Source: Candidatus Kurthia intestinigallinarum
GTDB lineage: Bacteria > Bacillota > Bacilli > Bacillales_A > Planococcaceae
Assembly (NCBI RefSeq): GCF_003991225.1
Contig: NZ_JTFC01000031.1
Location: 620,001-684,000, forward strand
Direction of reading: 5' to 3'
Length of the DNA stretch: 64,000 nucleotides
Part shown: positions 1,447-15,658 of the stretch, piece by piece
Numbering within the stretch: the stretch's first letter is position 1
How the letters are laid out: each line of letters begins with the position of its first letter
The notes under the pieces: generated by a model
Seen by the model: only the letters and a program-made list of their open reading frames with translations
Databases searched by the model: none
What the model was told of the DNA's origin: nothing
Program-made: the position numbers and the translations under genes

Positions 1447-4400
1447 TTATTTAGGGAAAACCTCTTTGAAGTTTTTCAATTGGTTTTTCATATCAAATAC
1501 CTTGTAGTAATAATGGTAGCGTGTTTGCGCCTTCGTATCCGCTGCGTTTAATGGTTTTAACGAAACACCATTAATTTTAACCATTTTATTTAGGCCGTTA
1601 CGGATGTTCGCCATGTCGATGGCGTCTTTTAAATAGTCTTTTTTATTACTCGCTTGATTTTCATCTAAATATAGCACCAATTCTTCTAGCATGATAATCA
1701 TTTCGTATGGATTATACGTGCTCAGTTTATTAGGCGAATTCGATTTATTTTTAAAGGATCTTGGTGCCTCACCTTTGAAATCATACTTATACTGCACCTT
1801 ATCTACTTTTTTATAATACTTCGTAAGCATTTTGCGATTTTTCACATATTCTTGCTGTTGCTTCGTTAAAGCATCATACGCTTTTTGTGCTTTTACAAAT
1901 TGTTTGAAAAATGAGCTACCTTCTTTGACTGAATCAATCACCTTATCTACTGCCTCAGCTTGTGCAATATTGTACTCATCAGATAAATATTCTTTATTCG
2001 GTAGGTTCGTATTATCAAAAATTGTCTTAGCATCGCCTTTTAACGCTTTATGCAGCTTCAACGTTTCAGATAAAATCGCTGCCTGCTCATCCTTTAGCGC
2101 TGTTAATTCTTTCGTGCTATCAAAGGGTGGTAATTTATAAAGATTTTCTCGAATCGCTATCAGTGGCAAGAATTCATTATAACGTGCCAGTACTTTACTA
2201 TCTAACCATGCTTTTTGATAATCTGATAATTTATTATACATCGCCACTACTTTTGAAATATCATCTTTAATATCGTCTAAATTGACACCAATTGGATTGC
2301 CAACAGCTAATGTTGATTTCGAACTTAGCGCCGCTACTGCCTTTTCAAATTCTTGTACATTGGCAGCAGTGGCTGGCGTTAATACGTCGCCACTTAGCTT
2401 TGTCCCACTATACAGCTTCTCAAAATAACGTTTTTGCTCCATCATCTTATCTGCACTGCGTAAATACCAGCGCGCATTGTTCGATAAGCCATCATAGGCG
2501 AATACTAATGCCTTTAATGCCTCTGCATATTTTTTTGCCTCTTTATCTACAAGCGGTGGGCGTGGGTCTGACGGATCATCGCCGTAAGGAATGTCCGTAT
2601 ATTGCGTCACAAACTTCGCATATAAATCTTCCATCTTCTGTGCTTCATCGATATATTTCTTTTGATTCACATAAAACGGTAAGATTATTAATGATTTTTC
2701 AAAATCAGTTGTTGCTGTTGTTGCTGTTGTTTCTAAATTTTTCACCATCGTTTTTTGAACATTCCCAAGCTTGCCGTACGCGGTCACTGCATTTTTCAAA
2801 TCTTCCATTTCAGCTAATGTGTACGGTGTACCGATAATCGCACCAGTCGGCTTAGCAGGCGCCACAACCGTTAAAACATCATTTGCCACACCTAAAGCAA
2901 ACACTTTATCCTGTGGCACAGTTTGTTGATTTAATCGTTCTGCCTTCAACGTATACGTAACCTTTTTCTTCGTCACCGCAGAAGTCGTTACCGTACGTTC
3001 AATCACTGCGACATCATTGGCATCACGCAGTGTTGGCACAGAAAAATCAAGTAACAATACAAACTGCTCATATTTCTTCATAATGTCATCTGCGACCACA
3101 CTTTGAACGTAATCCGATAAACGATTATAGCGATTATAGACGCTTTGTACCGTTTCTGTTGCGCCGCCTGTGTTCATAATTTTGCTATCAACGGATAAGT
3201 CTTTAACGGCTTTTTCAAAGTTCGCTAAATCTTGAATCTCCGTTTTATATTTCTCCTTTAAGGCTTCGATGTCATCTGCATGCTTCACGAATGCTTTCGT
3301 TGCCGGCTCCGCTTCATCATACGCCTTAATCAATTCCATTACTTTTTCTAAATAATCCTTGCTGCTCGGCTTTAATGCCTCATACATCTTATCAATTTTT
3401 GATGCTTCATCTAAAAATGCTGCACTCGCTAAGAAGGATGTATCACGCATAACCTCGCGCTCCTGTTGCTTGTCTGGCAAATAGCAAGACGTTGTTGTTT
3501 CACTATCTGTACGATGCTTACTTGATGCAATAATCCCTTTTTGCTCCGTATCGAGTGTGTTGTATGCTTTTAACACCTTCAATAAATCCGCATGGGATAA
3601 ATCCACATATAAGTAGTCATACGATAAAATATCGTCTGTGCTACACCAGTATTTATAGAAATGCTGATAGCGCGCGACATCCTGGATTTGAATTAGCACC
3701 ATTAATTTATTGTACTCTGTCATTTTTCCCTTTGGCACAAACGCTTGAATGATCTCTGATTTTTGAACATTTTTCTCATAATAATCTTTTAAATCATTCA
3801 CTTCGCCAATATTGCTTGCGCCCGTGATTTTATCGATTTCTGCAATAAATGCGAGTGCTGCCTCGTATTCTTTTTTATACGTCGTTTCAATCGCTTTTAA
3901 ATCTTCTGCCGCCGCCACATATTTACGCACGGTTGGCGAAGCATTGATAAACGTCGTATACAGTTTAATCATATCTACTTGGTAGGTAGCCGAAGATGGC
4001 TTTAATTTTTGATAAGCCTTATCGATTTCTGTAGCTGTTTTGATTTCATCCACTTTCCCAAGCACTTTCGCCTGTGGTGTTTCAGCGCCTCCTACTGGTT
4101 TGAATGAATTCATCACTGCATTTTTCGGTCCAACCGACATCTTATCGTAAATTTTAATGGCGTCCTGAATATTTTTAATATCCTGTGTTGTCGGATGCTC
4201 AATATCAGTTGCCGCTAGTAAATTTACAACCTCATACGCCTCTACATAGGATTCGTACTTCTTCATGACCGATTTTTCGATAATACTTTGGGTGCTCGTA
4301 TCATGCTCAATCATCGTATGATAATAATCCACCGCCGTAATGACCGGTGTCGCCCCATTTGTCGCTGTATCAACCGCACTCTTCGTATTTAACTTACCTA

Positions 4401-6777
4401 CTAACTCTGTAAATTTATTCGCGATTGCCTGTGGATAATTGCCCGATGTTTTGGACACAAGCCCATTAAACCAATGCAAGCGCTCCTGGTTAATAACATA
4501 CTTCTTCACTTTTGGTGAGGCAGATTTGTATTGGTTGTACACTTTTTTCACATCTGCAGCGAACGACTTACTTCCCGTATCCAATTTCAAAATCGCCGCA
4601 TCAATTTTAATCGCATTCGCTACAAGCGTATATTCCGTTCCCCATATACGGGCGATTGGCGTCTTTTCATTATCATTTCGATTCGCTTGATCCATGATAA
4701 CTGCTTTATCGACAAGTAGACGCTGTGGCTCAGTTAACGCATTGTATGCCTTACCAAACGCCACAATACGCTCCTCATCACCTGTATTGTATTTGAAATC
4801 CTTCTCTTCTACCTTCAACTCTGCTGTACCTGGTTGATATGGCTTCTTCACTAATTCATCCGATAACGTTTGCCCCTCACGAATCAGCTGTGGCATCGTC
4901 ATATACAGCTCATAATCCTTCACAAGCTCTTTTGGCAGCATATCCATAGCTGCTGGCTTACCAGGATTTGCGGCCTTTTTCGCCTCAAGTGCCTTATATG
5001 CGCTTCGCAGTGCTTCAAGCGCTGCATCAACATCCGCCGCCGTTATAATATTTTTTTTATTATCAATTTTTAATTCATTCGGTTTATTCGCATCAGGCAC
5101 TGTAATTGTCGCAGTTTTCCCCTGATTCAGTAACGCCACTTGCTCTTTAAATTTATTAATATCCGCAATCTGGTCCTTATACGTTTCTTGAACAGACGCC
5201 ATCTCTTTGCCGAAAATCGTATATTTCTTCACTTCAGGTAATGCCTTACCAAACGCCACAGAAGAATCGATTAAGGCTTGTAAATCATTTTTATCGACAG
5301 CCTTCGTATACGTTTTATCGAGCTTTTCAGCATCTTTAATTTGCTGCTCCTCTGGGAAGAAGCTGCGGTTTTTTAAAATCTTCGTCTCATTCGCCTCATT
5401 ACTAAACTCATACGGTACGGTCCCCGCTGGATACGTCATCGCAATATTGCCTGTATTTAACGCATCGACAAATTTCTTCTGATCATCACCTAATTTATCG
5501 TATAGCTTCTGTGCCTCGACGATGGTTGTACGATGCTTCTCAAGCTGAATATTCTTTTGGTCCGCTACCGCTACATTCGCCGCCGTGCTCCAATCAATCG
5601 AATCAGATGCCTCCGCACGGTTTAGCGCACGTAATACTTCCGGCACAGCTTTATAAGCCTCATACAGCTTCACAAAATCCTTATTCAGATATTTTGATAG
5701 TTGGATGCCATTATCCGGCTTCGTAGACGCGGTATACGCATCCTCTGCTGCTTTGATTGTAGCAATTGTGACATTCGGTGTATCTTCTAATACTTCAAGC
5801 GCTTGATTATAGGCCGTGAGCTTCGCATGCGTATCGCGATACTTTTCGTAAATGATATCCATTGCCTCGACATAATACGGATCGATATAGCGCTGTGTGA
5901 ATTCACTACCGATTGTTTCTTTCGGATACAGCACACTAAAATCATGATAGGCCATCATTAATTCAAATGATTTACTATCAAAGTTTTTATTCGTCGGATT
6001 TAACGCCTCATATAATTTCGCCAGTTCCACTGATTGATTGATTTTGTCTTCATCTTTTAAATACTCGTTGATTTTCGCAATTTCGTCAGCATCAAATAAG
6101 CTTTTTTGGAAATCATCCATTTTTTTATAGTCCGCTAAAAATGCCTGTAATTGCTTTGCTGCCAATGTTTTATTCGACGTATACGTTTTATCTAAATCGC
6201 CAAACGCATCTAAAATCATGCCATCCTTGCTAATCTTTACGACAATCGACTCGCCATCTGGATCCGTTGTAATTGTCGATAATAAGTTAACAACATTTTT
6301 ATACGATGCTTTCGCCTGTACGGGTGCCGCATACTTTTCAAGCTTCTTCACCGTCGCCGCAGGAACCGCCGCCTTTGTAATCTTAGTAAGGCCATCATAT
6401 GTTTTCTGAGCCTTCGCTGCCTGTGTCACATAGTTTTTCGTCGTAATCGAATTGACCTGTGCTTTCAGCGTCGTAATCTTTTTCTCTAGTGGCGCAATTT
6501 TCGCTAAATGCTTTTTCAGCGTACTGTAATTGCTGACAAGCTTTTTATCCGTTGTTGATAACTTTTTATACGCATTATTCGCCGCACGCGTTTTCGCAAT
6601 ATAATTCGTCTTTTTTGAATTAATCGCTTTAATTTTATTAATAACCGCCTTCGCCTTTTTCGTTGGCTTCTTCGTTGCCGCCTCTGCTACCTGACCACCA
6701 TCTGGAAAAGCCGCTGTTAACCAACCCGGTACAGTCAGTGCCATCGCAAGACTCGTCGTTAAAATTTTCTTATGCAC
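1447..6777 (-). CDS. Giant secreted helical-repeat protein (1776 aa)
   Basis: I recognise no named family. A signal peptide (residues 1-34, ending VAEAA) is followed by ~1740 residues of predicted alpha-helix with degenerate repeats. One repeat type has the core Y-x-x-L-[ST]-x-x-Q-[KQ]-x-x-V, as in YDKLGDDQKKFV, YNKLSDYQKAWL and YDALTKQQQEYV. A second, ~65-residue type starts LKPSS or LNPTN and contains an aromatic-x-V/F-x-x-A-[ED] block. No LPXTG, SLH, LysM or Tyr-x-x-Gly repeats are seen, so the mode of surface retention is unknown. The start is GTG at 6777 behind AAAGGAATG. It stands alone between fliT and the PilZ gene with terminators on both sides. An extracellular matrix or surface-layer accessory role is a guess. 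Confidence 0.75.
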   Translation of the reverse strand: MHKKILTTSLAMALTVPGWLTAAFPDGGQVAEAATKKPTKKAKAVINKIKAINSKKTNYIAKTRAANNAYKKLSTTDKKLVSNYSTLKKHLAKIAPLEKKITTLKAQVNSITTKNYVTQAAKAQKTYDGLTKITKAAVPAATVKKLEKYAAPVQAKASYKNVVNLLSTITTDPDGESIVVKISKDGMILDAFGDLDKTYTSNKTLAAKQLQAFLADYKKMDDFQKSLFDADEIAKINEYLKDEDKINQSVELAKLYEALNPTNKNFDSKSFELMMAYHDFSVLYPKETIGSEFTQRYIDPYYVEAMDIIYEKYRDTHAKLTAYNQALEVLEDTPNVTIATIKAAEDAYTASTKPDNGIQLSKYLNKDFVKLYEAYKAVPEVLRALNRAEASDSIDWSTAANVAVADQKNIQLEKHRTTIVEAQKLYDKLGDDQKKFVDALNTGNIAMTYPAGTVPYEFSNEANETKILKNRSFFPEEQQIKDAEKLDKTYTKAVDKNDLQALIDSSVAFGKALPEVKKYTIFGKEMASVQETYKDQIADINKFKEQVALLNQGKTATITVPDANKPNELKIDNKKNIITAADVDAALEALRSAYKALEAKKAANPGKPAAMDMLPKELVKDYELYMTMPQLIREGQTLSDELVKKPYQPGTAELKVEEKDFKYNTGDEERIVAFGKAYNALTEPQRLLVDKAVIMDQANRNDNEKTPIARIWGTEYTLVANAIKIDAAILKLDTGSKSFAADVKKVYNQYKSASPKVKKYVINQERLHWFNGLVSKTSGNYPQAIANKFTELVGKLNTKSAVDTATNGATPVITAVDYYHTMIEHDTSTQSIIEKSVMKKYESYVEAYEVVNLLAATDIEHPTTQDIKNIQDAIKIYDKMSVGPKNAVMNSFKPVGGAETPQAKVLGKVDEIKTATEIDKAYQKLKPSSATYQVDMIKLYTTFINASPTVRKYVAAAEDLKAIETTYKKEYEAALAFIAEIDKITGASNIGEVNDLKDYYEKNVQKSEIIQAFVPKGKMTEYNKLMVLIQIQDVARYQHFYKYWCSTDDILSYDYLYVDLSHADLLKVLKAYNTLDTEQKGIIASSKHRTDSETTTSCYLPDKQQEREVMRDTSFLASAAFLDEASKIDKMYEALKPSSKDYLEKVMELIKAYDEAEPATKAFVKHADDIEALKEKYKTEIQDLANFEKAVKDLSVDSKIMNTGGATETVQSVYNRYNRLSDYVQSVVADDIMKKYEQFVLLLDFSVPTLRDANDVAVIERTVTTSAVTKKKVTYTLKAERLNQQTVPQDKVFALGVANDVLTVVAPAKPTGAIIGTPYTLAEMEDLKNAVTAYGKLGNVQKTMVKNLETTATTATTDFEKSLIILPFYVNQKKYIDEAQKMEDLYAKFVTQYTDIPYGDDPSDPRPPLVDKEAKKYAEALKALVFAYDGLSNNARWYLRSADKMMEQKRYFEKLYSGTKLSGDVLTPATAANVQEFEKAVAALSSKSTLAVGNPIGVNLDDIKDDISKVVAMYNKLSDYQKAWLDSKVLARYNEFLPLIAIRENLYKLPPFDSTKELTALKDEQAAILSETLKLHKALKGDAKTIFDNTNLPNKEYLSDEYNIAQAEAVDKVIDSVKEGSSFFKQFVKAQKAYDALTKQQQEYVKNRKMLTKYYKKVDKVQYKYDFKGEAPRSFKNKSNSPNKLSTYNPYEMIIMLEELVLYLDENQASNKKDYLKDAIDMANIRNGLNKMVKINGVSLKPLNAADTKAQTRYHYYYKVFDMKNQLKNFKEVFPK

Positions 6778-6910: not shown

Positions 6911-7276
6911 TTATTTACGTTTATCGTAATAAGTGCCGTCACGATTGTAAAAGGCACTATAGGGATCATGATATTGTTTCTCTGATTTTTTTGATGCTTG
7001 AAGCTGTTTCATATCATTCGCAATATCTCGTTTAAAGCTTTGCAGACGCTCAACAATTCCTTTATCAAGCGCTCGTAGCTGCGCCTCGTATTCGTGGCCA
7101 ATGATTGGATTGACAGGCAATGCCTGAAGCTGATCAATCGTTTGCCCACGCGCATCAAGTAATTTATTCACGTATGAAATATACTCATCACGTTTATCCT
7201 CTTTATCCTCAGGCTCCTTCTCTAAAAAAGAGTAGAGTTTTTCAGATAATAGCAGAAGCTGCTTCATCAAATCCAT
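6911..7276 (-). CDS. fliT: Flagellar protein FliT-like export chaperone
   Basis: A 121-residue, charged, all-helical protein starting MDLMKQLLLLSEKLYSFL, placed directly behind fliS. FliT proteins chaperone the filament cap FliD during type III export. The start overlaps the fliS stop as TAATG, showing translational coupling; the longer in-frame start at 7333 lies inside fliS and was rejected. Sequence conservation of FliT is weak, so the call rests largely on position and helix content. The C-terminal tail (YHDPYSAFYNRDGTYYDKR) is unusually Tyr-rich. Confidence 0.75.
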   Translation of the reverse strand: MDLMKQLLLLSEKLYSFLEKEPEDKEDKRDEYISYVNKLLDARGQTIDQLQALPVNPIIGHEYEAQLRALDKGIVERLQSFKRDIANDMKQLQASKKSEKQYHDPYSAFYNRDGTYYDKRK

Positions 7277-7674
7277 TACACTTGATTCCCTGTATATTGG
7301 CGTTGACGATTCATTTGGATGACTTCCTTCCACGTGTCTCGGAATTCGATTGTTAAATTTTCTACCTCATCAAGAATTGCACTATCGCTATTAATATTAG
7401 CCTGCGTTAATTGATGATACATGTAGTCATATAAATCAAACATATTTTTTGAAACAGGTACGTCCATATTTAACGTAGACATTAATTCATTCAAAATGGC
7501 CTGCGCCTTTTGAATATATTTATTACGCGCTTCAATATTTTTTACTTCAATTGCTTTTTTTGCTTGGTGGATGAATTTAATACATCCATTGTAAAGCATT
7601 AATGTCAGTTCACCCGGGGACGCGGTTGTAACACTATTTTTTTTGTATGCATTATATGCATTTTGTACTGACAA
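7276..7674 (-). CDS. fliS: Flagellin export chaperone FliS
   Basis: A 132-residue four-helix protein with the family core NAYNAYKKNSV near the N-terminus, then PGELTLMLYNGCIKFI. FliS binds the C-terminus of flagellin, keeps it unfolded for export and in Bacilli also interacts with FliW. The start is best taken as TTG at 7674: AAAAGGAG lies nine bases ahead of it, whereas it directly abuts another in-frame TTG at 7683. It lies 27 bases after fliD and is coupled to fliT. Confidence 0.93.
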   Translation of the reverse strand: MSVQNAYNAYKKNSVTTASPGELTLMLYNGCIKFIHQAKKAIEVKNIEARNKYIQKAQAILNELMSTLNMDVPVSKNMFDLYDYMYHQLTQANINSDSAILDEVENLTIEFRDTWKEVIQMNRQRQYTGNQV

Positions 7675-7701
7675 ACGAAACAACTCCTTTTAAATACTTA
7701 A

Positions 7702-9573
7702 TTACTGTGCAAAGATAGATGATTGACTATTGGCTTTTTGAATCGCCGTCTCCATTGCAGAGAACTGCTTCCAGTAACGCTCCTCGATATCTTTTAGGCG
7801 ATCTTTCCAATCATCAATTTTTGATGTTAAATCTGAAATAGTTCTGCCTAAAGAATATGATTTTTCTGATGTAGAAGTCGCTTTTCCTGCGCTAACCTCT
7901 ATATTTTTAACTGCATTTTGTGCAGCAGTACGTAGTTTAGAAACAATACCCTCTTCACCAGTTGAAGTATCGCCCGTAAAAATTCTCGTTACCGCATCGG
8001 GATCTTTTTCTAAAGCTTTACGTAGTTTATCTTCATCAACCTCTAATTTCCCATTATCTGTATATGCTTTAGATGTTGTAATACCTAGACTTGCTAACGT
8101 ATCACCTGTTTTCCCACCATATTGCGATAATGCCGTTCGCATTGAAGAAAGCGCACTATTAATATTGCTATCTCCTTTTAATAAACCCGCTTTTGCTTTT
8201 TCTTCCCATTTTGTAATTTCTGCATCCGTCATTTCAGCTTTTTGTGCATCAGTTAACGGGCTATAATCCACATTTCTTTTTTCACTTGTTTTTGTATTTA
8301 AATCTTTAATTAAACCATTATAAGTATCAATAAATTCTTTAACTTTATCAATTGTTTTATCAACATCTGAAGAAGAAGTAATGTTAATGCTTGAACCTGC
8401 ATCAATTGCTTTCGTTATTTCTAATTTATACCCTGCTACATTATACGTATTAGATGATTGCTCAATTGTCATACCATTTACAGTTAATGAACCATTTTTT
8501 GCACCTGTAGTTGCAAATGCACCTGTATTAGAACCTTCATTTGAGAAGAAGCCTAACTTTTTAAATACACCCTGATTATCTTCTGTAACACCCATGACTT
8601 TCCCGTCAATACCGGCACCTGCTGTATTAGATGTTAGAGAAATTTTGTTGCCGGACATAACAGCTGTAACACCTGCACCAGATGAATTGATTTTAGTCAG
8701 TAAAGACTCTACCGTATCAGTTTCTTTAAACGTAATTTCTTTTTCGATAAAGTCTGTTCCTGTTTCATTTAACCCAACTAATTTAAATGTGCCATTTGTT
8801 AACCCTAGCTCAGAAAGCTTTGATGTCGACTTAAGATTAGATGATGAAATTTCAGTAGTAACTAAAGTTTGTGAACTAACTGCTTGCCCAATTGAATCCT
8901 TAGTTAATTTGCCATCAGATTCTAAAGAAAAACCCAACTTATTAGCAAATGTTTTAGAATAGGAAGCATCGCTTACTTTAATATCAGCTCTAATAACTAG
9001 CTGACCTTTTTCTACTTGTGCATTAGCACCTGCTGAATTTAATTTAGATACTAATGAATCGACTGTATCATCTTTAGAATATTCAACAACTTTATCTTCT
9101 CCATTAATAGAAAATGCAAACTTCCCTGCTGTTGACGCAATACCAAAATCAGCTAATTTTTGAGTAGATGAATATGTGTTCGCTAATGTATTTTGCACAG
9201 TTCCAGATGTAGCTAGTGTTGCTGATGTAATTTCTAACTTTCCTGCCGCAGAAGATGTAGCCGTAGCTGTTACTTTATCACTACCTGTATTAGCAACTGT
9301 TTTCGTATTCCAGCTGCTTTGTTTACCATAGCTATCAAAAATACCTTGTTGGAAGGTTGTCAACGATGTATTGACTTCACGATAAGCATCGCGTTTCCAT
9401 TCATATTTTTGCTTTTGTTGCTGAAGTTTCTCCATTTGAGAGCTTTCAGCCTTCATTAATTTTTCCATAATCGAATCGATATCCATACCTGATACGAGAC
9501 CACCGATTTTATTTTTATATTGTAAGTAAGAATAAGCTGCTTGAGAGCTTGCAGTACCATTTACTGTTGCCAT
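7702..9573 (-). CDS. fliD: Flagellar filament cap protein FliD (HAP2)
   Basis: A 623-residue protein. The FliD N-terminal domain (~25-130) contains the motif GLVSGMDIDSIMEKLM; long Ser/Thr/Gly-rich beta domains occupy the centre (~130-410); the C-terminal domain (~420-620) ends in a coiled coil. FliD caps the growing filament and inserts flagellin monomers. The ATG at 9573 follows GTGAGGAGGAACA. It is the third gene of the flaG-fliD-fliS-fliT string, 15 bases after flaG. Length is at the upper end of the Bacilli range, with an N-terminal extension of ~20 residues before the conserved GLVSG motif. Confidence 0.95.
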   Translation of the reverse strand: MATVNGTASSQAAYSYLQYKNKIGGLVSGMDIDSIMEKLMKAESSQMEKLQQQKQKYEWKRDAYREVNTSLTTFQQGIFDSYGKQSSWNTKTVANTGSDKVTATATSSAAGKLEITSATLATSGTVQNTLANTYSSTQKLADFGIASTAGKFAFSINGEDKVVEYSKDDTVDSLVSKLNSAGANAQVEKGQLVIRADIKVSDASYSKTFANKLGFSLESDGKLTKDSIGQAVSSQTLVTTEISSSNLKSTSKLSELGLTNGTFKLVGLNETGTDFIEKEITFKETDTVESLLTKINSSGAGVTAVMSGNKISLTSNTAGAGIDGKVMGVTEDNQGVFKKLGFFSNEGSNTGAFATTGAKNGSLTVNGMTIEQSSNTYNVAGYKLEITKAIDAGSSINITSSSDVDKTIDKVKEFIDTYNGLIKDLNTKTSEKRNVDYSPLTDAQKAEMTDAEITKWEEKAKAGLLKGDSNINSALSSMRTALSQYGGKTGDTLASLGITTSKAYTDNGKLEVDEDKLRKALEKDPDAVTRIFTGDTSTGEEGIVSKLRTAAQNAVKNIEVSAGKATSTSEKSYSLGRTISDLTSKIDDWKDRLKDIEERYWKQFSAMETAIQKANSQSSIFAQ

Positions 9574-9588
9574 TATTGTTCCTCCTCA

Positions 9589-9963
9589 CTATGCTTGTGT
9601 ATCAAAAATTTTCCCAGCTAGTTTTTGCATTTCATAATAAGCATCTAATAAAGCTTTAGGTGGTATTTCTTTTACAACCTCTTGTGTTTGAGCATCTACT
9701 ACTTCGACATAATAACGCTCTAAATCGCCGTGAAAAATAAATTTAGAATTTCTCTGTGTATGTTCCATAAATTCATTCAACTTATTAACAGCTGTTTGAT
9801 AAGCTTGTTCAGTTGGATTACCCTTTTCATCAGTCATTTCAGAAATATCCACTTTAGACTTATGAATATCATTTGATTTTTGATTAATTTTATTTATTGA
9901 TATTCCATTAGAATGATTTGAAATATTTTTTTGAAATTCAATTTCAGTTGTTCCTAACTTCAT
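9589..9963 (-). CDS. flaG: FlaG family flagellar protein
   Basis: A 124-residue protein with the FlaG domain in the second half: FHGDLERYYVEVVDA, then EVVKEIPPKALLDAYYEM. The first ~45 residues are polar and probably disordered. FlaG proteins influence filament length and usually precede fliD. The ribosome site AAGGAAGG is nine bases from the ATG. The gene begins six bases after the stop of the aldolase gene, tying the sugar-modification genes to the filament-assembly operon. Confidence 0.93.
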   Translation of the reverse strand: MKLGTTEIEFQKNISNHSNGISINKINQKSNDIHKSKVDISEMTDEKGNPTEQAYQTAVNKLNEFMEHTQRNSKFIFHGDLERYYVEVVDAQTQEVVKEIPPKALLDAYYEMQKLAGKIFDTQA

Positions 9964-9969
9964 AACTAC

Positions 9970-11556
9970 TTACCTTCCTTCTGTATAAGCTAATTTACTT
10001 GAATGTTTGTTATATATAGATTCTGTAATCCAGTCAATATCCATACAGTCCAAATATTTATCTAAAACCTTTATAACTCCACTATTGATTCTCGATTTTT
10101 TCAATTCAGACATTGGCAAATTATCTTCAGAATCCACATAATCTTGTGTATGACCATAACCATCGAAACCTGCTAACAATATATGACGTATACCAACATT
10201 TTTTAAAAACTCTAACAACATTAGCATCGCATTGTCTGACACATGATCTACTAAATTTAAAAGACTATTATAATCAACTATATATTTATTATCGGAAGTT
10301 ATCTGTAAATTAGAAGTTACAATACATGGAATATTTTCTTTAAGTAATATTTTTTCTGCTCTTTTTGCATTACTAATAAATAGCCAATCAATTTTTATAT
10401 TTTTAGGTATAAAATTAACACTAATTACAACAGTATCCTTAGTAATATATTTTTTAATCTCTTCTTCATTTGTTTCAATTGTTTTTCCAGAAGCTAATAC
10501 TAAAATTTCTTTACTTTTGAATATCTCTCTGAAATTAATTAAAATACACTCATCATCTATAACGCTCTTTTGAAAATCATTATATAAATTTTCAATATAT
10601 AATTTATCAAATTTTTGAGAACGCTCTAAACTAATAGAAGATAGAATTTCTTCCATATTTTTTATAGTTAAAGTATTTTTATCATTTAAGTATGTTGCAT
10701 AATTTGGATGGCAATTATAAAGTGCGGATAAATAGTGTGGCAACGAATATCCCCAGTAATTCTTACTATACTCAATAGAAGTTGTTTCATCTATTATTTT
10801 CAAGAGTGGATAGATATTGTAATCTGTATCATAAGTTTCGTTTAAAAACTTTACAAATAGTTCTGTATTTAGATTTCCAGCACCTCTTCCCATCCCTTGT
10901 ATAGAAGAATCTATAATAATATCTCTTTTTTTACTTTCTTCAACCAAACTTTGTGCATTAGAAAACGCTAGTTGCAAATTATTATGTGCATGATAACCTA
11001 TTTTAATGTTTGGAAATAAATTATTTTCTAATAAATAATAAAGTCTAAGTAAATCATTTCGATTCATAACACCAAAACTATCTACTATATATAAAGCCTC
11101 GGGTGTAATTCGATTCACCTCTTGAATCAACCCTAAAAGTTCCATATCTGTATAATTAATAGTTGCCATCGGCTGTATAAACACTTTATAGCCTTTTTTC
11201 TTCACTGCTTCTGCATATATTACTGCATTTTGCCATTCTTCTTTTTTAAAAACGACTCTTATACCATCTAATGTGTTACTATCACATGAAGGAATTTTAG
11301 AAATATCAAATTCACCATAGTTAATCATGCCAACATATAATGTATCGGATTTTTTTTGAGATCTTATATTTACAAATCCTGGATAAATAGTGCTATTTTT
11401 ATCTAACTTAGCTTTATCTTTAATATATCCGCATTCAATAATATCAACATTCGCCTTTTCTAAATTTATCATGATATTTTTTATATTTTTCTCTCCAAAG
11501 AACCAATTATTAATATATCCGCCATCTCGTAAAGTGCAATCTAATATTTGAATCAT
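9970..11556 (-). CDS. DRE-TIM aldolase fused to a Maf-like C-terminal domain
   Basis: A 528-residue two-domain protein. Residues 1-~310 form a pyruvate-type DRE-TIM metallo-aldolase barrel (HMG-CoA lyase/4-hydroxy-2-oxovalerate aldolase superfamily): DCTLRDGG at 6-13, VDSFG at 158-162, the metal-binding HAHNN at 189-193 and the flexible loop QGMGRGAGN at 220-228. After a helical linker, residues ~345-528 form a Rossmann-like domain (LVLASGKTI at 353-360, later WLFISNAKR and LLAGFDGYG) resembling the core of DUF115/Maf enzymes. It sits between a CMP-sugar synthetase gene and flaG. My inference is an aldolase making a ketulosonic-acid-like sugar for flagellin. The true substrate is unknown, and the C-terminal domain may bind or transfer a nucleotide sugar. 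Confidence 0.75.
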   Translation of the reverse strand: MIQILDCTLRDGGYINNWFFGEKNIKNIMINLEKANVDIIECGYIKDKAKLDKNSTIYPGFVNIRSQKKSDTLYVGMINYGEFDISKIPSCDSNTLDGIRVVFKKEEWQNAVIYAEAVKKKGYKVFIQPMATINYTDMELLGLIQEVNRITPEALYIVDSFGVMNRNDLLRLYYLLENNLFPNIKIGYHAHNNLQLAFSNAQSLVEESKKRDIIIDSSIQGMGRGAGNLNTELFVKFLNETYDTDYNIYPLLKIIDETTSIEYSKNYWGYSLPHYLSALYNCHPNYATYLNDKNTLTIKNMEEILSSISLERSQKFDKLYIENLYNDFQKSVIDDECILINFREIFKSKEILVLASGKTIETNEEEIKKYITKDTVVISVNFIPKNIKIDWLFISNAKRAEKILLKENIPCIVTSNLQITSDNKYIVDYNSLLNLVDHVSDNAMLMLLEFLKNVGIRHILLAGFDGYGHTQDYVDSEDNLPMSELKKSRINSGVIKVLDKYLDCMDIDWITESIYNKHSSKLAYTEGR

Positions 11557-11571
11557 TTTTATCTACCTCAT

Positions 11572-12291
11572 TTACTTCATTAATGTCCTTACGATTTCTA
11601 AATCTTTCTCTGTATCAACTGATAAAACATCACATTCTACATCAATCATTGAAACATTATATCCATTTTCTAAATAGCGAATTAAATCATTATCCTCGAT
11701 TGATTCTATAACTCCTCTTTTAGTCGTATTATAAAAATCTAACGCCCGTTTATTTAAGACTGTAATACCTACATATTTTTTATATTCAAAGTTTAAATTC
11801 CCCTTTGGATAAGGTATCGGACTTCGCGAAATGTATAAACAATTTCCTTTTTCATTAGTTACAATTTTTAAATTTGTAAAATCAATCACTTCAGGAGAAT
11901 TTTTTATTGTTGTCATTGCATTAACAACACAAATTTCTGAATTATTCACTGTATTTGGAATTAATTCTTTCATTGTATTAGGAAGAATTAATGGTTCATC
12001 TCCATTAATACACATATAATAATCTGCCTGTTCATTAATAGAAACTTCGTGAATACGATCTAATGGGGTTTTATGTGTATCTAATGTTTTAACAACTTGC
12101 ATATTTAATTTATTACAAACTTCTATAATTCGATCATCGTCTGTCGCAACAATCACTTTAGAAAACTCTATTACTTTCATCGCATTTTGATATACCCACC
12201 AAATCATAGGCTTACCATTTATATCTGCTAATGGTTTTCCTTTAAATCTACTTGAATTATATCTTGCAGGAATTACACAAATAATATTCAT
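11572..12291 (-). CDS. KdsB-like CMP-sugar synthetase
   Basis: A 239-residue cytidylyltransferase of the CMP-Kdo synthetase family: the N-terminal nucleotide loop IPARYNSSRFKGKPL, VATDDDRI, the metal/sugar region INGDEPLI, and YISRSPIPYPKG. These enzymes activate an acidic keto-sugar with CTP. Kdo is not expected in a Gram-positive, so the likely substrate is another ulosonic acid destined for flagellin. The ATG at 12291 is preferred over an in-frame TTG at 12300 because AAGGA lies eight bases ahead of it. The gene sits 12 bases after the small acidic gene and 15 bases before the aldolase gene. Confidence 0.88.
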   Translation of the reverse strand: MNIICVIPARYNSSRFKGKPLADINGKPMIWWVYQNAMKVIEFSKVIVATDDDRIIEVCNKLNMQVVKTLDTHKTPLDRIHEVSINEQADYYMCINGDEPLILPNTMKELIPNTVNNSEICVVNAMTTIKNSPEVIDFTNLKIVTNEKGNCLYISRSPIPYPKGNLNFEYKKYVGITVLNKRALDFYNTTKRGVIESIEDNDLIRYLENGYNVSMIDVECDVLSVDTEKDLEIVRTLMK

Positions 12292-12303
12292 TACTATCAA
12301 TCC

Positions 12304-12648
12304 TTAATTTTTATTTAACACAGCAAATTCTTCAACAAACTCATACTCTAATATATCTGCAGCATCATCATAGTTTCTTTCAGCCAGCTTCCCATTAAAA
12401 TCAGCCCAAATTTGAAGAATTTTAACGATATCTAGAGGAAACTCTATATTTTCAACCAAACTAAAATTTTTCACTCGAATAATCCAGTTTAATCCTTCTA
12501 ACAAGTTATTTATATTATCAACAGCTATTTCTATATTATTATTTCGTAAATATTCACCAATTTTTTCACATCCATTTGGTATTTGAACACTATATTTAAT
12601 TAAATTTTTTTCTAGTTCTTCCCATGTTAATTCTATTTCTTTAGACAT
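12304..12648 (-). CDS. Small acidic protein of the flagellin-modification cassette
   Basis: A 114-residue, acidic, helical protein without signal peptide or membrane segment (starts MSKEIELTWEELEKNL, ends in a very acidic stretch EYEFVEEFAVLNKN). I recognise no family. It overlaps the end of the Maf gene by eight bases, so the two are translationally coupled, and lies 12 bases before the KdsB-like gene. Position suggests an accessory or adaptor to the glycosyltransferase or a substrate-delivery protein; the sequence itself does not prove this. Confidence 0.8.
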   Translation of the reverse strand: MSKEIELTWEELEKNLIKYSVQIPNGCEKIGEYLRNNNIEIAVDNINNLLEGLNWIIRVKNFSLVENIEFPLDIVKILQIWADFNGKLAERNYDDAADILEYEFVEEFAVLNKN

Positions 12649-14377
12649 TTTTCTCAGACCCCTCTTCTAAAATCTCTTTAATATATTCACTAAATTCTTT
12701 AGAGATTTTTAAATAAACTTCCAGCATAGCAATATTTTTATGATAAATATGGATTTGTACTTCTAAATCTGTATCTCCTTTTTTTGACAGATAAGATTCA
12801 TGTAATTGCCAATCTACAGTTTGTTTCACCTTCCAAATAGGAACTTGTAAGAATAGCTCATTGATTGTTTTAATAAAAATTGAAAGCTCTTCATTATTTT
12901 GTAATAAATCCTCTAAAATCAAATTTTCGTTTTGTAATAACTCATTGTCTTTATTTAAATTTTCAAGCTTCCCTTCAATTAAAGATGTAATTTCTTCATA
13001 AATTATGATCTCTTTAGATAAATTTTCAAAAGGTACATAAGTAGATTTTCCTTCTTGAGTACTTGCTAACAAACGTTCTTTTTGAAACTCATATTTTTCT
13101 TCTACATTACTAGACAAGAAATTCAAAAAGCTAGTTTGTTTCATACCTTGAATTCTTGCGCCACCTTCTGTACAGTTAAATACTCTCCCAGGATTTTCAA
13201 CCATTCGAATTTGTTTCTCAAAGCTTTCCTTCATTGCGTTCATTGTTAAACTAGTTAATACTTCTTCATCGTTGTATCCTTCAACATAAAAATACTGATT
13301 TTTTACAATTTCTTCCTCTGTTAATTCATGAAAATCCTTATTCGTATTTGCATGTGTGGCATTATTTGTAAAAGCTAAGTCTTGTCCAATAAAAGCAATC
13401 GGTCCTTTTGTCATTAAAGAAGCAATGGTAAAGGCAAAATTAGCACAGGAAGTTCCCATATTTAACCCCATCATCGATAAACGTAAGCTTTTTTTTGCAT
13501 ACTCCTCTAAAGCTTGCGATTCATGAGTAAAGAAGGCAAACCCTTTTTTATTAAACGATTTTCTAATTTTAAAATGTGTTTCCATCGAATAAATTAAACT
13601 ACTACTAATATTTTTTAATTTTTCGTAGTGTTGTTCATAATGACTAAGTCGACCATCTACAGAAACTACGAAATCTGGAACAATATTAGCCTGCAACACA
13701 GAATTAATTGTAGAGCCAGAAACAATAGTCAGTACGCATTTCTCATACTTTTTCAATAAAATTAATTGTTTTGCTAGTGAAGGTCCCCCTGATATAACAA
13801 CTACTGGAATATGCGTTTCAAATTCTAAATCATACAGTGTACCATCTGTAGGCAAGTTCATGATATTATGAATAATATTTTTTTGCCATTGTATACTAGT
13901 AGATGTCACCGTATATAAGCTATTAGAAAAATTTTGCATTCTTTTTTTTAATATATTTAAAAACTTCGTATATTCACTTGCAAATAAAGTATCATAATTC
14001 TTCGTACAAATAACTTTGACGCGATTATGTGTTTGATGTAAATAAAAATCAATGACAGACTCAAGAACATTCATATCATTCATTGAATAAATGTACTGTT
14101 TACACCCGGTTACAGTGTCTCGAATTTCATCTAGCAATGGATCAATAATTAATAATTGTCCGCCATTAACATCTTCGTTTATAATTTTCTGAAGCATTTT
14201 TTCTGATAAATAACCTACACCATATCCAAAAACAATATGTGTATAATAATCTGATAATTCTTTTTCAATAATACGTTCTGCTTCTTTATTTGGATTTATC
14301 TTACTTTCAATATATATATCATTAATTTTCAATATTTTTTGTTGATTTTTAGCATATTCATATGAAATATCGTACAT
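12641..14377 (-). CDS. Motility-associated glycosyltransferase (Maf, DUF115)
   Basis: A 578-residue protein of the Maf family. An N-terminal Rossmann-like part (~45-90, FGYGVGYLSEKM) precedes the DUF115 core: VVVISGGPSL at 192-201, PDFVVSVDGR near 235-245, FIGQDLAFTNNATHA near 330-345 and CTEGGARIQG near 400. The helical C-terminus includes predicted coiled coil. Maf enzymes transfer nonulosonic acids (legionaminic or pseudaminic type) from CMP donors to Ser/Thr of flagellin. It lies 123 bases downstream of hag, across a terminator, with AGAGGTG before the ATG. Acceptor is presumably Hag; the donor is expected to be the CMP product of the downstream KdsB-like enzyme. Confidence 0.9.
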   Translation of the reverse strand: MYDISYEYAKNQQKILKINDIYIESKINPNKEAERIIEKELSDYYTHIVFGYGVGYLSEKMLQKIINEDVNGGQLLIIDPLLDEIRDTVTGCKQYIYSMNDMNVLESVIDFYLHQTHNRVKVICTKNYDTLFASEYTKFLNILKKRMQNFSNSLYTVTSTSIQWQKNIIHNIMNLPTDGTLYDLEFETHIPVVVISGGPSLAKQLILLKKYEKCVLTIVSGSTINSVLQANIVPDFVVSVDGRLSHYEQHYEKLKNISSSLIYSMETHFKIRKSFNKKGFAFFTHESQALEEYAKKSLRLSMMGLNMGTSCANFAFTIASLMTKGPIAFIGQDLAFTNNATHANTNKDFHELTEEEIVKNQYFYVEGYNDEEVLTSLTMNAMKESFEKQIRMVENPGRVFNCTEGGARIQGMKQTSFLNFLSSNVEEKYEFQKERLLASTQEGKSTYVPFENLSKEIIIYEEITSLIEGKLENLNKDNELLQNENLILEDLLQNNEELSIFIKTINELFLQVPIWKVKQTVDWQLHESYLSKKGDTDLEVQIHIYHKNIAMLEVYLKISKEFSEYIKEILEEGSEKNV

Positions 14378-14500: not shown

Positions 14501-15580
14501 TTATTGTAATAAAGAAAGAACACCTTGTGGCTGTTGGTTAGCTTGAGCAAGCATTGATTGTGCAGCTTGAGTTAAGATGTTATTTTTAGTGAATTCCATC
14601 ATTTCTTTCGCCATATCAGTATCACGAATACGAGATTCTGCTGCTGTTAAGTTTTCTGATGAAGCACCTAAGTTATTAATTGTGTGCTCTAAACGGTTTT
14701 GTACTGCACCTAAGTTAGAACGTGTTGCTGATACAGCGTTAATTGCTGCATCAATAGTTGTAATTGCTGATTCTGAGTTTGCTTGTGTTTTAATATCAAT
14801 ACCTTTAGCAAATTCGTCGTTCGCATTACCAACGCCAAGCGTTTTAGCATCCATTTTACCAACTTCTAGGTTCATTGTTTGACCTTGGTTAGCTCCAATA
14901 TGGAATGTTAATTTACCATCTGTAACAGTTGAGGCTACTCCAACAACACCTTGTACTCCCGCTACTGATGTTACGCCTGCTACTGCCGCTACTGACGGGC
15001 TTGCTGCTACTCCTGGTGTTTTAACTGTTGAATTAGCAGCACCTGTATATACTGTTGCTACTGATGCTACTGCTGTTGCTGATGCTACTGCTGTTACGCC
15101 TGCTACTGATTTCACTTCAGCTACTGATGTTACTGCTGCTTTAGTTTGAGAAGCGCCTTCTAAGTTACCATTTAATAATTTTTTCGTATTGAATTCAGTT
15201 GTGTTTGAAATACGGTTGATTTCTTTTGCTAACTGATCCACTTCTGATTGTAATTTTAAACGGTCATCTGCTGTATTTGTATCGTTGGCAGATTGTACTG
15301 CTAATTCACGCATACGTTGTAGGATTGAGTGTGTTTCGTTAAGAGCACCCTCTGCAGTTTGGATTAATGAAATAGAGTCACTAGCATTTTTAGAAGCCAT
15401 GTCTAAACCAGAAATTTGGCCGCGCATTTTTTCTGAAATTGCTAGACCTGCAGCATCATCACCTGCACGGTTAATTTGGTAACCTGAAGATAATTTTTCT
15501 AAGTTTTTAGAAGCTGCTGCATTGTTCATGCCTAAGTTACGGTGTGTGTTTAAAGCTGCGATATTGTGTTGAATTCTCAT
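14501..15580 (-). CDS. hag: Major flagellin
   Basis: A 359-residue flagellin. Conserved D0/D1 parts are intact: MRIQHNIAALNTHRNLG, SGYQINRAGDDAAGLAISEK, LQRMRELAVQSANDTN at the N-side and ESRIRDTDMAKEMMEFTK to LSLLQ at the C-side. The middle (~150-230) is a low-complexity Val/Ala/Ser/Thr/Gly stretch of V-A-[SG]-V-type repeats instead of a normal folded D2. The ATG at 15580 has AAGGAGGAATCTCACA before it; 19 extra in-frame codons upstream were excluded as they include the leader. Controlled by a SigD-type promoter and probably by CsrA. The following maf cassette suggests that the Ser/Thr-rich centre is glycosylated. Confidence 0.95.
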   Translation of the reverse strand: MRIQHNIAALNTHRNLGMNNAAASKNLEKLSSGYQINRAGDDAAGLAISEKMRGQISGLDMASKNASDSISLIQTAEGALNETHSILQRMRELAVQSANDTNTADDRLKLQSEVDQLAKEINRISNTTEFNTKKLLNGNLEGASQTKAAVTSVAEVKSVAGVTAVASATAVASVATVYTGAANSTVKTPGVAASPSVAAVAGVTSVAGVQGVVGVASTVTDGKLTFHIGANQGQTMNLEVGKMDAKTLGVGNANDEFAKGIDIKTQANSESAITTIDAAINAVSATRSNLGAVQNRLEHTINNLGASSENLTAAESRIRDTDMAKEMMEFTKNNILTQAAQSMLAQANQQPQGVLSLLQ

Positions 15581-15625: not shown

Positions 15626-15658
15626 GTTGCTTAGCAAGTGTCTTGCTTCACACTATAT

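Follow-up and report, generated by a model that had tools for sequence, protein, structure and literature searches.

A KdsB-like cytidylyltransferase and a two-domain aldolase as a probable donor-sugar cassette in the Maf flagellin glycosylation island of Candidatus Kurthia intestinigallinarum

In the present study, we analysed a stretch of 64,000 nucleotides from Candidatus Kurthia intestinigallinarum (assembly GCF_003991225.1, contig NZ_JTFC01000031.1, positions 620,001 to 684,000; hereafter the window), in which the flagellin gene hag is followed by maf, a small acidic gene, a kdsB-like gene whose product is a putative cytidine monophosphate (CMP)-ulosonate synthetase, and a gene for a two-domain aldolase, and these run directly into the flagellar genes flaG, fliD, fliS and fliT (Table 1). 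We propose that the kdsB-like gene and the aldolase gene probably form a compact donor-sugar cassette, which, in an island for flagellin glycosylation by Maf, takes the place of the NeuB-type nonulosonate cassette. The genes are tightly packed: maf shares 8 bp with the small acidic gene, and the following gaps are 3 bp between the small gene and the kdsB-like gene (12 bp if the latter starts at its ATG), 15 bp between the kdsB-like and aldolase genes and 6 bp between the aldolase gene and flaG. A pattern scan of the minus strand between 6700 and 16700 gave no terminator-like sites. Coordinates and family searches confirmed the gene order from hag into flaG and fliD that had been read in the initial annotation; at its end FliS was matched over the cut-off, while the match to FliT stayed below it. 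The G+C content of maf, the small gene, kdsB, the aldolase gene and flaG is 0.26-0.28, against 0.387 for the window, and because of this difference the block from maf to flaG is suggested to be an acquired island.

Table 1. Features of the flagellin glycosylation island and its surroundings in the window
Feature	Coordinates	Strand	Remarks
hag-like, second, divergent flagellin gene, 270 aa	15700..16512	-	Flagellin_N and Flagellin_C over cut-off
hag, likely acceptor flagellin	14501..15580	-	ATG at 15580 is the likely start; open reading frame from TTG at 15637
maf, flagellin glycosyltransferase, 578 aa	12641..14377	-	PF01973, 105.3 bits (cut-off 34.6)
Small acidic maf companion, 114 aa	12304..12648	-	Homologues adjoin maf in relatives; no family match
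KdsB-like CMP-ulosonate synthetase (putative)	11572..12300, ATG at 12291	-	PF02348, 136 bits (cut-off 22.6)
Two-domain aldolase, 528 aa	9970..11556	-	HMGL-like, PF00682, 68 bits (cut-off 29)
C-terminal Maf/MptE/sialyltransferase-like domain of the aldolase protein	10012..10539	-	Fold match
flaG, island boundary	9589..9963	-	PF03646, 79 bits (cut-off 23.8)
fliD	7702..9573	-	
fliS	7276..7683	-	Family match over cut-off
fliT	6911..7333	-	Family score 21.7, below cut-off 29.5

The aldolase consists of an N-terminal DRE-TIM domain (approximately residues 1-300) and a C-terminal domain (approximately residues 340-515), which was absent from the initial annotation. Its structure model reached a predicted local distance difference test (pLDDT) of 90.9 and a predicted template modelling score (pTM) of 0.86, and the family score together with the structure comparison revealed an HMGL-like barrel with the RD and HxH motifs. 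Residues R10, D11, H189 and H191 were invariant in an alignment of 49 sequences, a subset of the 80 loci of the wider scan described below from which L066, L095, L098 and L106 were excluded for stop codons. The best sequence matches of the DRE-TIM domain are aldolases, and its nearest folds are 3dxi and the 4-hydroxy-2-oxovalerate aldolases. With 3dxi, the protein BVU_2661 of Bacteroides vulgatus, the window aldolase shares the barrel, both motifs and the sequence RDGGY. The DmpG-type 4-hydroxy-2-oxovalerate aldolase 1nvm has the same barrel and motifs, but it carries RDGSH, with a His where the window aldolase family has Tyr, and it is complexed with a dehydrogenase. The window family differs from both in its additional sialyltransferase-like domain at the C-terminus. 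This domain, when modelled alone, gave a clear fold match to Maf, MptE and sialyltransferases. By sequence it scored 14.2 bits against the Pfam gathering threshold of 34.6, and 11 of 28 cluster members matched Pfam at E <= 0.5 (best 3.1e-4); comparison with the Maf alignment by hhalign gave no match (3%), and no invariant His was present in a 28-row alignment. The domain is thus alike in fold to the group of MptE-like proteins, GT42 sialyltransferases and Maf, but lies below the Pfam cut-off and is fused to an aldolase. CMP-ulosonate transferases have this fold, and the domain may bind a CMP-sugar, for hand-over or feedback, or may be a second transferase.

The best solved relative of the KdsB-like protein is 1gq9, a 3-deoxy-manno-octulosonate (Kdo) cytidylyltransferase. 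The protein exceeded the cut-off of the NCBIfam subfamily NF003952 (216 bits against 193) but did not reach that of the kdsB equivalog TIGR00466 (126.6 against 155.2). The presumed catalytic positions R10, R15, K19, D100, R157 and R213 of E. coli KdsB are kept in it, and Q98, H181, E210 and Q211, which we take to be the Kdo-contacting pocket, are replaced by N, Y, D and L. Across the window protein and 27 cluster members from aldolase loci, Q98 was kept in 8/28, H181 in 6/28, E210 in 9/28 and Q211 in 0/28, while in five solved KdsB chains the Q ahead of GDEP, the H and LEQLR are all present. Since these four presumed pocket positions are changed, the sequence suggests that the substrate is not Kdo; the alternative would be a Kdo enzyme of relaxed specificity.

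To look for other sources of a donor sugar, the whole source genome was searched (247 contigs, with an estimated completeness of 99.99%). A single DAHP (3-deoxy-D-arabino-heptulosonate 7-phosphate) synthase/chorismate mutase was the only match to the NeuB and KdsA families; it passed the Pfam cut-off of the NeuB family with 34.8 bits, and nothing in the genome matched NeuB at E <= 1e-30, so that a hidden NeuB was rejected. The same DAHP synthase was the only match to KdsA, with 113.9 bits against a cut-off of 314, and the KdsC and KpsF/KdsD models gave weak matches only, none over cut-off, although the roles of these two could be taken by different HAD or SIS proteins. With no match over cut-off for KdsA, KdsC or KdsD, a canonical Kdo supply was also rejected. 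No cytidylyltransferase of the NeuA, LegF or PseF type was found in the genome (PseF model 47 bits, cut-off 206). PF02348 had two matches, the kdsB-like gene of the window and a protein identified from its sequence as GlmU; a second cytidylyltransferase elsewhere was accordingly discarded, and the KdsB-like protein is the only CMP-sugar-synthetase candidate of the genome. The absence of NeuB noted in the initial annotation was borne out in the assembled contigs. A complete neuB/pse/leg set (or a Kdo set) that could supply Maf, named there beforehand as the outcome that would speak against its proposal, was not found.

This genome stands apart from its relatives. We surveyed 201 genomes (the source and 200 relatives), with Maf matched at E <= 1e-8 and NeuB, scored anywhere in the genome, at E <= 1e-30, a threshold strict enough to exclude DAHP synthase. 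Maf was matched in 63/201 genomes and NeuB in 82/201, 20 of the latter without a Maf match. NeuB was present in 62 of the 63 Maf-matched genomes, and the sole exception was the source genome. One relative, G038, lies outside the 63 and yet encodes a divergent Maf-like protein; it has NeuB. In 20 relatives whose DNA around maf was fetched, the order fliW-hag-maf-small gene matches that of the window; csrA was called in 19 of them, and one relative has an extra open reading frame (ORF) between hag and maf. Within the fetched stretches, of which 6/20 reached flaG, the slot that follows maf and its small companion held short-chain dehydrogenase/reductase (20 relatives), aminotransferase (16), NeuB (14), NeuA-like (12) and NeuC-like (10) genes, NeuB being assigned by search positions and the others named by eye from the sequence. 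In the window, the kdsB-like and aldolase genes fill this slot that nonulosonate-type genes take in relatives. When the window Maf was aligned with those of the 20 relatives, its mean identity of 31.8% was the lowest of the 21 compared.

The small acidic gene was also considered as a sugar-pathway enzyme, and this was rejected as it accompanies maf beside NeuB-type cassettes too. Its product had no family match in family searches. A homologue beside maf was recovered by BLAST in 19/20 relatives and by clustering in the twentieth, and another occurs in G495 (see below). Because it adjoins maf in all 20 relatives with other sugar cassettes, it looks like a general Maf companion outside the donor pathway, and the protein is a candidate Maf partner or chaperone.

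Within the family, 261 genomes were surveyed for the full-length aldolase at E <= 1e-50. It was found in five (the source, G495, G489, G038 and G595), in all of them between hag and flaG. In G495, which belongs to another genus, the order is csrA, hag, small gene, maf-like gene, kdsB (47% identity), aldolase (50%), flaG, fliD, fliT and fliS, so that the cassette of the window is repeated, apart from the exchanged places of maf and the small gene; this recurrence argues that the order is more than chance. The sole NeuB-family match of G495 is AroA-sized (32.5 bits), and the genome has no true NeuB. The G495 KdsB-like enzyme keeps Q98 and E210, with H181 and Q211 changed. In G489, a NeuA-like gene and the aldolase lie in a longer island that also holds NeuB, and the islands of G038 and G595 combine kdsB, the aldolase and a Maf-like protein of unusual length with NeuB; a 2.5-kb stretch of the G038 island lies outside the fetched DNA, and unrelated ORFs lie between NeuB and flaG in G595. 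KdsA was absent over cut-off from all four other aldolase genomes, and in G038 the aldolase has a KdsC-family phosphatase as its neighbour. In an aldolase tree of 82 rows (rows shorter than 500 aa excluded), the five flagellar rows required four label changes, two of them forced by well-supported branches, and 30 of 500 shuffles were as low. G495 formed a pair with G489, and G595 did so with Bacillus sp. EAC (L071). The simplest reading of this tree, in which gains and losses cannot be separated with certainty, is that the aldolase was recruited into flagellar islands repeatedly.

Two further observations were made on related loci. In two flagellin islands, Maf-like proteins of about 970 aa (L035:10833-13742 and L195:5293-8211) are encoded near kdsB and the aldolase gene, and no Pfam family reached its cut-off in their long C-terminal extension. 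RDGGY-type aldolases that stand alone, about 320 aa long and lacking the C-terminal domain (L037-L045, nine fetched genomes of the class, four from the same genus), were set aside, since their contexts were unrelated and no kdsB-like gene was seen in them.

A wider scan covered one genome per species in 84,980 species, and the best 80 relatives of the aldolase (36-49% identity; more exist) were taken. They came from Bacillota, Bacteroidota, Fusobacteriota, Spirochaetota, Verrucomicrobiota, Melainabacteria and one archaeal metagenome-assembled genome; the alignment extended to residue 490 or beyond in 72, and the shortest spanned residues 2-392. With the flagellar proteins of the window as queries, no flagellar genes were seen up to 10 kb on each side of these loci; long flagellar islands may be missed at this range, because the flagellar locus of G038 also showed none there. 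Neighbours were counted in 78 scan loci alone or in 80 (the 78 with L035 and L036), L096 and L109 being excluded as ORF calling labelled no aldolase in them. A KdsB- or NeuA-type gene was the immediate same-strand neighbour of the aldolase in 48 of the 78 loci, whereas a gene drawn at random from the same locus would be expected to give 5.6; it stood upstream in 46 of the 48, mostly touching or overlapping, and such a gene lay within three genes of the aldolase in 52/80. The two activator types alternate along the aldolase tree (18 and 16 changes), which suggests that both kinds of partner share the same kind of substrate.

Among the other neighbours, 7/7 members of the PfkB-type cluster resemble kinases of 2-keto-3-deoxygluconate (KDG) or 2-keto-3-deoxygalactonate (KDGal), below the equivalog cut-offs, and 3/3 neighbours of the KdsC type scored above the threshold of the KdsC/YrbI subfamily. 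Both enzyme families, KDG/KDGal kinases and KdsC phosphatases, have 2-keto-3-deoxy sugar acids as substrates, and their presence beside the aldolase elsewhere fits a product of this class. For the NeuA-, HAD-, acetolactate-synthase- and RfbH-type and other neighbour clusters one member each was scanned; the commonest neighbour phosphatase (27/80 loci) was phosphoglycolate phosphatase-like in that member and is little informative. In 16/80 loci (L063, L085, L095, L107, L120 and others), the neighbour of the aldolase fusion is an acetolactate-synthase-like enzyme, and no gene of the KdsB/NeuA type lies within three genes of the fusion. Around these loci, single members passed the cut-offs for RfbH (L063), cytidine diphosphate (CDP)-glucose 4,6-dehydratase (L095) and glucose-1-phosphate cytidylyltransferase (L120). 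Here a 2-keto acid for thiamine-diphosphate-dependent transfer may come from the aldolase, and where enzymes for CDP-3,6-dideoxyhexoses are present its product possibly feeds a branched-chain sugar pathway. In either type of locus, the aldolase product would be a 2-keto acid.

Taken together, these findings are consistent with the following pathway. The DRE-TIM domain would use a divalent metal to form the enolate of pyruvate and add it to a sugar aldehyde, which would yield a 2-keto-3-deoxy-aldonic (ulosonic) acid. The KdsB-like enzyme would convert this acid with cytidine triphosphate (CTP) into its CMP form, from which Maf would move the sugar to Ser/Thr of Hag as an O-glycan. The sugar on Hag is probably not Kdo itself. 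Maf enzymes of Clostridium botulinum and Geobacillus kaustophilus reportedly accepted both CMP-Kdo and CMP-N-acetylneuraminic acid (PMC11339370), and for this reason a different Maf donor is plausible. The gene logic is strong, and we infer every catalytic step and the sugar from genomic and structural support. The route from aldolase through the KdsB-like enzyme and Maf to Hag, as it had been outlined in the initial annotation, gains support from the missing NeuB and Kdo supply, the position of the cassette, its recurrence and the neighbours acting on 2-keto-3-deoxy acids. Of the four genes listed there, maf, kdsB-like and the aldolase gene stay in the proposed pathway, and the small gene does not look like part of it. 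The survey of their order in other genomes recovered the cassette, in the rearranged form of G495, from a family in which five of 261 genomes have the full-length aldolase.

It is also conceivable, though unlikely, that the donor is ordinary CMP-Kdo, with the aldolase joining pyruvate and D-arabinose (or its 5-phosphate), the KdsB-like enzyme making CMP-Kdo and Maf transferring Kdo. Membership of the KdsB family, with 1gq9 as best solved relative and the passed NF003952 cut-off, agrees with such a route, as do the KdsC-family phosphatase beside the aldolase in G038, the Q98 and E210 retained in the G495 enzyme and the reported acceptance of CMP-Kdo by Maf enzymes (PMC11339370). Against it, the four presumed pocket positions are changed in the window protein, Q211 and H181 are lost in all or most cluster members yet kept in the solved KdsB chains, the TIGR00466 equivalog was missed, and KdsD and KdsC had no match over cut-off in the source genome.

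The aldolase and KdsB-like enzyme might instead serve another surface polymer and lie here by chance, Hag being unmodified or Maf using some other donor. We regard this as improbable. No flagellar gene was seen near the best 80 loci within the scanned range, so most of them may serve polysaccharides, and the low identity of the window Maf would also agree with it; but G038 and G595 show that long flagellar islands can escape a 10-kb range, the aldolase fusion lies between hag and flaG in all five family genomes, the cassette is packed tightly into the interval from maf to flaG, where no gap exceeds 15 bp, and no other donor synthase was found in the genome. Least probable, and hardly to be expected, is that the DRE-TIM domain is a Claisen-type synthase, which like homocitrate or isopropylmalate synthase would join a 2-oxo acid with an acyl-CoA to give a branched acid, as its best sequence matches are aldolases and its neighbours elsewhere are KDG-type kinases, KdsC-type phosphatases and KdsB/NeuA-type synthetases.

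The proposed donor cassette can be compared with known systems. With the legionaminic and pseudaminic acid Maf systems of Campylobacter, Aeromonas, Geobacillus and Clostridium, the window has in common Maf beside hag, an island ending at flaG-fliD and, putatively, a CMP-activated 2-keto-3-deoxy acid donor. Unlike them, its island lacks a NeuB-type phosphoenolpyruvate (PEP) synthase, dehydratase, aminotransferase and acetyltransferase, and has a pyruvate-type aldolase and a KdsB-like activator. The likeness to the Kdo pathway (KdsD, KdsA, KdsC, KdsB) would be the activation of an ulosonic acid with CTP by a KdsB-family enzyme, but the first three enzymes were not found over cut-off, the maker of the C-C bond is a DRE-TIM aldolase and four KdsB positions differ. 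The KDG/KDGal kinases and KdsC phosphatases that adjoin the aldolase at some other loci are absent from the window cassette.

On balance, we favour the wider view that a further route to CMP-ulosonic acids exists beside the PEP-dependent NeuB and KdsA. It would use RDGGY pyruvate aldolases with a sialyltransferase-like fusion and interchangeable KdsB- or NeuA-like activators, would operate in glycan loci across bacterial phyla, and would have entered Maf islands apparently more than once, bringing there a sugar acid new to flagellin. Maf glycosylation itself is known, and the new part would be a donor pathway with a different first step. If this is true, Maf-type flagellin glycosylation can be independent of the NeuB family, and CMP-ulosonic acids can be reached by a two-enzyme route. 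Furthermore, a large protein family with one solved member, named only "putative aldolase", would consist of ulosonic-acid synthases, and undescribed acidic sugars would be predicted on the flagella and surface polymers of gut and soil bacteria. A literature search, mostly outside subscription journals, gave no paper on an aldolase/KdsB pathway for flagellin or ulosonic acids, which is not proof of absence.

Two other genes lie at the edges of the locus. Directly downstream of the flagellar genes, positions 1447-6777 of the minus strand encode a protein of 1776 aa, which as judged by eye has a signal-peptide-like start and in which no Pfam family reached its cut-off. On the other side, the hag-like gene has a divergent C-terminal region (Flagellin_C 66 bits, against 110 for Hag), and it is perhaps a minor or decaying flagellin.

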